From positions 1-64,000 of the forward strand of contig JAFXEB010000024.1 in NCBI GenBank assembly GCA_017521025.1: a stretch of 64,000 bases of DNA, read 5' to 3'. Numbering within the stretch: the stretch's first letter is position 1; each line of letters starts with the position of its first letter. Made by a program: the position numbers and the translations under genes. The stretch comes from Clostridia bacterium. GTDB taxonomy: Bacteria > Bacillota > Clostridia > Oscillospirales > CAG-382. The notes under the pieces were generated by a model, which was not told the origin of the DNA, ran no database searches, and saw only the letters and a program-made list of their open reading frames with translations. Shown in pieces: positions 2-1,214 of this stretch.

Positions 2-520
2 GAAATCCTTGAACTTAAACGCGTTGCGGAAAAAGCCTTTGATAATGTAGATAAGAATATGCGAAAATGGTTAGCAGATAAACCATCGGCAGAAAAAAGA
101 ATATTCAATTTACAAGAAAGATTAAAGCAGTTGGAACAAGACCAAGAACAAATATTGCTTGAGCGTATCCGTGACAGAAATCGTGCAGATGTTTATGACC
201 GTATGCTTGCCAACTGTGAAACTGAAATACAAAATATAAGAAAACAGTTATCCGAATATAAAGATGCCGAACGAACTATCAAGGAGAGGAAGAAAGAAAT
301 CAAAAAGAGCATCGAACTTATTGACAGTATCATCGCAGACGGCGCTATAAGTGATACACACTTAAGAATGCTCATTGAAGAAATAATAATAACCGAAACA
401 GAAGGGAAGTTGACCGTCAGATTTATGCTCAATGGCTCTCATCGAATTCACTTGGATTATTATGATGAAGAAGGCGAAATGGTCGGCAGAGATGCAGAGG
501 TGTGGTGCTTCCCAGTGTAA
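2..520 (+). CDS. Large serine recombinase, C-terminal part (5' truncated by window edge)
   Basis: The reading frame is open from the first bases, so this is the last 172 residues of a longer protein. It is a charged, coiled-coil-rich segment (repeated Glu/Lys/Arg heptads over roughly residues 10-110) followed by a beta-rich tail, as in the DUF4368-type C-terminus of large serine recombinases from Clostridia conjugative and mobilizable elements. The catalytic N-terminal resolvase domain lies outside the window. Such enzymes cut and join at attachment sites next to their own gene, and an imperfect inverted repeat starts 7 bases after the stop codon. It is richer in A+T than the chromosomal genes further right, which fits an acquired element. 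Assignment rests on the coiled-coil tail only, so the exact subfamily is open. Confidence 0.7.
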   Translation, partial: EILELKRVAEKAFDNVDKNMRKWLADKPSAEKRIFNLQERLKQLEQDQEQILLERIRDRNRADVYDRMLANCETEIQNIRKQLSEYKDAERTIKERKKEIKKSIELIDSIIADGAISDTHLRMLIEEIIITETEGKLTVRFMLNGSHRIHLDYYDEEGEMVGRDAEVWCFPV

Positions 521-627: not shown

Positions 628-714
628 TGGTGCGGGTAACAGGACTTGAACCTGCACATCCTTGCGAACATAAGAACCTGAATCTTACGCGTCTGCCAAT
701 TCCGCCATACCCGC
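628..714 (-). tRNA. tRNA-Leu (anticodon CAG)
   Basis: Acceptor arms GCGGGTA/TACCCGC pair fully, the D arm has the class II form, and the anticodon stem TAAGA/TCTTA encloses loop TTCAGGT, giving anticodon CAG. A long variable arm and the T loop TTCAAGT follow, and the CCA end is encoded. It is 87 nt long. Its anticodon stem (TAAGA) differs from the CTAGA found in the two truncated upstream copies, so the complete gene and the copies are not simple duplicates of each other. It reads codon CUG. Confidence 0.95.
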
Positions 715-859
715 CTATTTGATTTTCGCCTCTGATTTTTACACGGCGAGGCAACCGAGGTGGAGTTTACTTTTCGGATAAATCTTACTGTTCAATTTGT
801 TCCACGAATATAAAAACGCAAAAATGCGATTATATCAAACGTTTCAACGAGGTGGCGTT

Positions 860-898
860 ACCTGAATCTAGCGCGTCTGCCAATTCCGCCATACCCGC
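860..898 (-). pseudogene. tRNA-Leu 5' half, copy 1
   Basis: Thirty-nine bases matching the tRNA-Leu from its 5' end through the anticodon loop (CAGGT); the 3' half is absent and replaced by unrelated sequence beginning AACGCC. The half anticodon stem reads CTAGA rather than TAAGA. It cannot fold into a tRNA. Confidence 0.85.
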
Positions 899-1043
899 CT
901 ATTTGATTTTTGCCTCTGATTTTTACACGGTGAGGCAACCGAGGTGGAGTTTACTTTTCGGATAAATCTTACTGTTCAACTTATTCCACGAATATAAAAA
1001 CGCAAAAATGCGATTTTATCAAATGTTTCAACGAGGTGGCGTT

Positions 1044-1082
1044 ATCTGAATCTAGCGCGTCTGCCAATTCCGCCATACCCGC
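1044..1082 (-). pseudogene. tRNA-Leu 5' half, copy 2
   Basis: Same 39-nt 5' half as at 860-898 with one further change next to the anticodon (CAGAT instead of CAGGT). It is the first of the copies met by transcription from the promoter at 1186-1214. Confidence 0.85.
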
Positions 1083-1185: not shown

Positions 1186-1214
1186 ATTTTATCAAAATGC
1201 GCACGAATTGTCAA
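1186..1214 (-). promoter_or_regulatory. Sigma-A promoter of the tRNA-Leu region
   Basis: On the minus strand TTGACA (1209-1214) and TAAAAT (1186-1191) are separated by 17 bases. It reads toward both tRNA halves and the complete tRNA-Leu and is the only strong promoter in that direction. Confidence 0.8.

Follow-up and report, generated by a model that had tools for sequence, protein, structure and literature searches.

Half tRNA-Leu genes beside a large serine recombinase suggest successive integrations at an anticodon loop and adjoin a covarying leader RNA

The window, that is, the whole 64,000-nt stretch analyzed here, spans the initial 64 kb of contig C14 in the draft genome of a Clostridia bacterium (1.64 Mb, 36 contigs, 85.7% complete). 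Because it begins at base 1 of the contig, the left side of the array described below is cut off. ARAGORN identified a complete tRNA-Leu(CAG) at 628–714 on the minus strand, and a repeat finder delimited two units (676–859 and 860–1043, 96% identical, spacing 184) as well as a third repeat start of only 39 nt (1044–1082). These results bear out the original prediction of one complete tRNA-Leu and two 5′ halves spaced 184 nt apart; a 184-nt repeat at 96% identity is not due to chance. The predicted difference in the anticodon stem was also found, with CTAGA in both 5′ halves versus TAAGA/TCTTA in the complete gene. A search of the draft showed the array spacer to be absent from the rest of the genome. 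The locus contains the following features:

2–520, plus strand: C-terminal 172 residues of a large serine recombinase, truncated by the contig start (96% identity to residues 374–545 of protein P0001)
590–626, no strand assigned: perfect 16-bp hairpin behind the tRNA (inverted repeat I1), probable bidirectional terminator of tRNA and recombinase; same position in genomes G022 and G036
628–714, minus strand: complete tRNA-Leu(CAG), read as the element's replacement tRNA and next target; 87/87 identity to a chromosomal tRNA of genome G027
715–859, minus strand: inner spacer, read from the repeat comparison as attachment arm and leader RNA of a second element
724–805, minus strand: inner copy of the leader RNA, P1 and pseudoknot (model R2, E = 2e-14)
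860–898, minus strand: tRNA-Leu 5′ half, read as what the second integration left of the tRNA brought by the first element; crossover dinucleotide TC at 864–865
899–1043, minus strand: outer spacer, read as attachment arm and leader RNA of the first element; 2/145 differences to G022
908–989, minus strand: outer copy of the leader RNA, P1 and pseudoknot (model R2, E = 8e-16)
1044–1082, minus strand: 5′ half read as that of the host's own tRNA-Leu, based on an occupied/empty site pair in genus g5; crossover dinucleotide TC at 1048–1049
1186–1214, minus strand: host promoter-like site TTGACA-17-TAAAAT before the array

The only strong promoter of the array was that of the host, with none of comparable strength inside the leader spacers. 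This suggests that the precursor of the complete tRNA probably includes two upstream halves, and transcription of the whole array as a single precursor from the promoter at 1186–1214, as originally predicted, is plausible. A further hairpin behind the recombinase gene (528–577) resembled the tRNA-Leu D arm in two stretches, one of 17 nt at 88% identity and an inverted one of 16 nt at 94%; it was kept in G022 and G036. This likeness may be due to chance, to a relic or to regulation.

The truncated frame corresponded to P0001 of G022 (RGIG1645, goat cecum), in which Resolvase, Recombinase and zinc ribbon domains are combined in one protein. The gene adjoining the array thus encodes a large serine recombinase, of which the window keeps the C-terminal third, and not a tyrosine integrase. 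Genes behind the recombinase in G022 included those for a MobA/VirD2-like relaxase and an AAA_25 protein, the element being cut by the contig end there as in the window. G022 and G036, both from another genus of the window's family, shared the order recombinase, terminator hairpin, complete tRNA-Leu, spacer, one half and host genes, with the spacer unit in single copy in these two independent assemblies. Since this one-copy unit occurred in two independent assemblies of another genus, and two-half arrays were present in other genomes including isolates, the array is not an assembly artefact. In agreement with the expectation that related genomes would show an empty site, G010 and G030 (of the same genus as G022, g5) carried one intact tRNA-Leu at the homologous locus; they have the promoter and some 5 kb of upstream DNA in common with G022. 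Homology between G022 and these genomes stopped exactly where the half ends. The half therefore marks the insertion edge, while spacer, complete tRNA, terminator and recombinase are parts of the element. This corrects the original prediction in one respect: the repeated DNA, taken there for promoter-side host DNA, is an element end with a structured RNA leader. The prediction had also named arrays in relatives lacking any integrated element as a counterargument. One such candidate was found in G050 (half, spacer and tRNA, with no recombinase in the 13 kb read), although a decayed element would look alike.

The contig does not reach the far end of the window's element, which is missing from the assembly. 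No separate tRNA-Leu 3′ half was found in the window's genome (G000), G022 or G036, and the homologous 3′ flank in G022 showed no adjoining attR. A pattern search for CAG-type attR sites returned unrelated contexts only, without the far end of the window's element or that of any CAG-type relative. Synteny between the window's host side and congeneric tRNA loci was not detected, a recombinase scan of viral contigs gave no relative, and matches in plasmid and phage records were mostly to tRNA. The complete tRNA is, as far as the sequences tell, the element's own and not the host's. As the draft contained no other tRNA-Leu(CAG) 3′ end of such kind, the cell may depend on the element-borne tRNA-Leu.

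A genome scan revealed 29 relatives of the recombinase. About half of them showed a complete tRNA-Leu (CAG or UAG) beyond the recombinase 3′ end, accompanied by one to three or more 5′ halves. The arm after each half was similar among relatives (roughly tnnYGYCACCTyrGTGaa), and in several elements a P arm was fused to a tRNA-Leu 3′ half at the far end. Paired adjacent serine-recombinase genes occurred in Flavonifractor-type elements (L072/L077 in G143, L073/L078 in G261). The halves could be read as barcodes: at four loci, two of them in isolates, an orphan 5′ half paired perfectly with the far 3′ half (7/7 acceptor, 5/5 anticodon stem). At L087, the orphan half TTGGA paired with the 3′ half TCCAA 8.2 kb off, whereas the inner tRNA read GGGGA/TCCCC. 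In the isolate Flavonifractor AGMB03687 (L088/G789), the half GCGGGCA/CGAGA matched TCTCG/TGCCCGC about 26 kb away, and in the isolate An10 (L188 with L191) GCGCCTG/CGAGA matched TCTCG/CAGGCGC about 32 kb away. L059 (G052) combined GCGCCTG/CCAGA with TCTGG/CAGGCGC. At L102 the acceptor paired 7/7 (GCGGTTA/TAACCGC), and this layer was nested inside another half with GCGGATA. Pairing was also full at L094, but indistinguishable from that of the element's own tRNA, and the L097 and L100 pairs had one anticodon-stem mismatch each. The matching halves of L059 (7733–11790) enclose a 4-kb island with enolase-superfamily and AraC-type genes and no recombinase, probably a decayed element.

Joining of the L087 sequences reconstructed an attP, CACCAAGGTGACA-TTACCC-TT-AGGTGC-TGTCACCTTGGTG, whose 13-bp arms form a perfect inverted repeat around a central TT; in the corresponding attB, TT occupies Sprinzl positions 33–34 of the UAG tRNA. 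L102 had the same crossover centre, its half departing from the tRNA right behind it. CAG tRNAs read TC at this place, and the L172 halves diverged immediately after TTC. In L087 and L102, the central dinucleotide common to attP and attB is thus flanked by inverted arms; the attP of the window's own element is not visible. These departures in L102 and L172 place the true junction at nt 34–35 (Sprinzl 33–34). The predicted end of the halves 39 nt in consequently holds for the shared stretch and not for the junction; the last shared bases, AGGT, can derive from the element's attachment site. Serine integrases usually require that the central dinucleotides of their att sites match. If this rule holds here, the central dinucleotide with the wobble base would decide which isoacceptor is entered, so that the anticodon itself may select the target.

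We propose that the array arose by two successive integrations of elements whose large serine recombinase would specifically recognize the tRNA-Leu anticodon loop, and assign this reading a probability of roughly 0.87. Each element would bring a structured RNA leader beside its attachment site and, behind it, a complete tRNA-Leu with a terminator. Crossover at T33-N34, presumably by the window's own recombinase, would split the resident tRNA-Leu, leaving its 5′ half behind the host promoter and carrying its 3′ half to the element's far end, while the element's tRNA would take over the function of the split gene. Being an intact new target, this tRNA could be entered by a second element, leaving a second half and a second spacer. 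The order from the promoter would then be host half, element 1 spacer, half of the element 1 tRNA, element 2 spacer, complete tRNA, terminator and recombinase. Support for the originally predicted repeated integration at a tRNA-Leu target comes from the recombinase beside the array, the occupied and empty sites and the split-tRNA complementarity in relatives. The excision or unequal recombination invoked along with it is not needed. A single integration followed by local tandem duplication, through unequal crossing-over between tRNA 5′ ends, could likewise have given the second half and spacer: the units are in register and 96% identical, and short tandem repeats duplicate easily. We nevertheless consider this course unlikely. 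Only 2/145 sites separate the outer spacer from its G022 counterpart, compared with 6/145 from the inner one, and the complete tRNA is of a foreign type, being identical to that of G027, from another genus; on these admittedly small counts, two separate arrivals are favoured. The anticodon stems of the outer and inner tRNAs also differ, and the two layers of L102 carry different acceptor barcodes, one of them matched by its own far 3′ half.

Each spacer contained, just 5′ of the tRNA, a conserved predicted RNA consisting of a hairpin and an H-type pseudoknot. P1 is a short hairpin (GNGG...CCNC) with a bulge, P2 has the form CTCGG...CCGWG with an A-rich stretch behind, and P3 forms between the P2 loop and bases after GTAAAAAT, creating the pseudoknot. 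Compensatory changes exceeded the controls in all three helices. For P1/P2, alignment A2 gave 31 cells changed on both sides versus 7.2 in shuffles (0/500), and the signal vanished on sliding. The 35-row alignment A3 gave 16 versus 4.0 and a covariation score above all shuffles, although two coarser measures among the five pair measures stayed within the shuffles, unlike in A2. For P3, none of 20,000 permutations of 35 distinct loops reached the observed score (z = 10.6, kinship being only partly corrected for). P3 pairs ranged from GTCCTC/GAGGAC to TTTGGTTTC/GAAACCAAA and varied even among otherwise near-identical frames. Comparison of G-U with A-C wobbles did not distinguish the RNA strand, which was assigned from the tRNA. 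The leader reached the score of no Rfam family, and to our knowledge no such covarying leader preceding tRNA-Leu has been described.

With a first model, R1, hits were obtained in 33 of 394 genomes from the order and in 21 of 391 from the class. As the 8 nt of tRNA in R1 could bias the context, the search was redone with R2, which holds no tRNA letters and matched 44 of the 394 genomes of the order. The surroundings of 40 R2 hits were inspected. Of these hits, 33 lay 5′ of a tRNA-Leu (CAG or UAG) or a tRNA-Leu 5′ fragment, including all those with E of about 3e-6 or better; the other seven belong to the weakest hits, with E values of 1.7e-5 or worse, and appear to be fortuitous. The leader also preceded tRNA-Leu genes without any half, and many copies stood outside elements, directly behind a promoter (L140, L141, L152, L156, L159). 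In G004 it occupied a locus where the congeners G001 and G003 carry a plain short leader. We therefore conclude that the leader is a feature of tRNA-Leu genes in gut Clostridia and travels with the elements. Since the elements L087, L100 and L102 have none, it is dispensable for recombination as such. L087 and L100 instead contained a promoter-like TTGATT-17-TAAAAT in the spacer, which suggests two ways to express a replacement tRNA, via leader or via spacer promoter. Tandem pairs of leader modules preceded a single tRNA-Leu or half in L139, L153, L154 and L177/L185, reminiscent of some tandem riboswitches. Another kind of disruption was seen in L145, L149, L157 and L160: behind the leader comes a tRNA-Leu 5′ fragment interrupted within the D arm rather than the anticodon loop, and behind that a complete tRNA-Leu.

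It appears fairly probable that the spacer encodes a cis-acting structured RNA of a new class that serves only tRNA-Leu(CAG/UAG) genes of Clostridia. Its spread and multiplication would be due to serine-recombinase elements which, by taking over an essential tRNA, would render the cell dependent on them. As to its function, we tentatively rank insulation or processing of the tRNA precursor first: the leader would keep the downstream tRNA folded or processed when halves lie upstream. Thermodynamic folding decides nothing here. The tRNA 3′ end paired with the upstream half when half, leader and tRNA were folded together, but leader and tRNA alone also gave a poor acceptor stem, and the method cannot accommodate the pseudoknot. 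Ranked second, and somewhat less likely, is a riboswitch-like or tRNA-sensing regulator that sets tRNA-Leu(CAG/UAG) output. The compact conserved pseudoknot, the restriction to one gene target and the tandem copies in L139, L153, L154 and L177 would fit such a role, yet the stretch from pseudoknot to tRNA shows neither a terminator nor another obvious switch, and there is no ligand logic. RNase P already generates tRNA 5′ ends, and no Rfam ribozyme family was matched; a self-cleaving ribozyme freeing the tRNA is thus a doubtful third choice, even though the site just 5′ of the tRNA and the pseudoknot fold would suit one and cleavage would be useful where precursors carry upstream halves. Least probable is that the spacer is mere attachment-site DNA or a degenerate promoter whose fold has no RNA function. 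Such a reading would explain why the leader adjoins the attachment arm in all copies and why some elements (L087, L100, L102) do without it, but it conflicts with the covariation in P1/P2 and P3, with leaders before half-free tRNA-Leu genes directly behind promoters, and with the absence of a strong promoter from the spacer.

These findings would extend tRNA targeting by serine recombinases, with crossover on the wobble base, to a whole clade in Clostridia. Because the element carries a full replacement gene, the target never runs out and half-tRNA arrays can grow, while an essential tRNA would be made dependent on a mobile element; the leader raises the question of control or processing for a single tRNA species. 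Serine recombinases targeting tRNA genes have been called unknown (PMC4383910) or rare, with a Mycobacterium tRNA-Leu case (PMC3218068), whereas serine-recombinase islands with accretion are known at tmRNA (PMC3146451). As a variant, the element falls within the tRNA-targeting integrative elements, but we found no description of whole-gene replacement with half-tRNA accretion in the open-access journal papers compared, and within that scope the leader RNA appears new. It shares the H-type pseudoknot core of SAM-V and similar riboswitches (PMC6061858), but differs in sequence, precedes tRNA genes only and matches no Rfam family. With the Islander-class islands of tyrosine integrases (PMC4383910), the element has in common the split tRNA, the gene restored by the island, the displaced fragment at the far end, tandem arrays and anticodon-centred sites; here, however, a serine recombinase is involved, the element delivers a complete gene with its leader where those islands supply only the lost portion, and displaced 5′ halves remain next to the promoter, where their number grows. 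The Mycobacterium AICEs (PMC3218068) likewise use a serine recombinase and target tRNA-Leu, but are actinobacterial, and complete tRNA replacement, leader RNA and half arrays are unreported there. The Dehalococcoides ssrA islands with the serine recombinase DsiB (PMC3146451) also target an essential RNA gene and accrete as many tandem islands, though in the T loop of tmRNA and marked by 20-bp 3′ repeats rather than half genes with a leader. Finally, integrative mobilizable elements (PMC5704250) share the combination of serine recombinase and MobA/VirD2-like relaxase found in G022; the listed serine-recombinase members disrupt dispensable protein genes, whereas here an essential tRNA is replaced.
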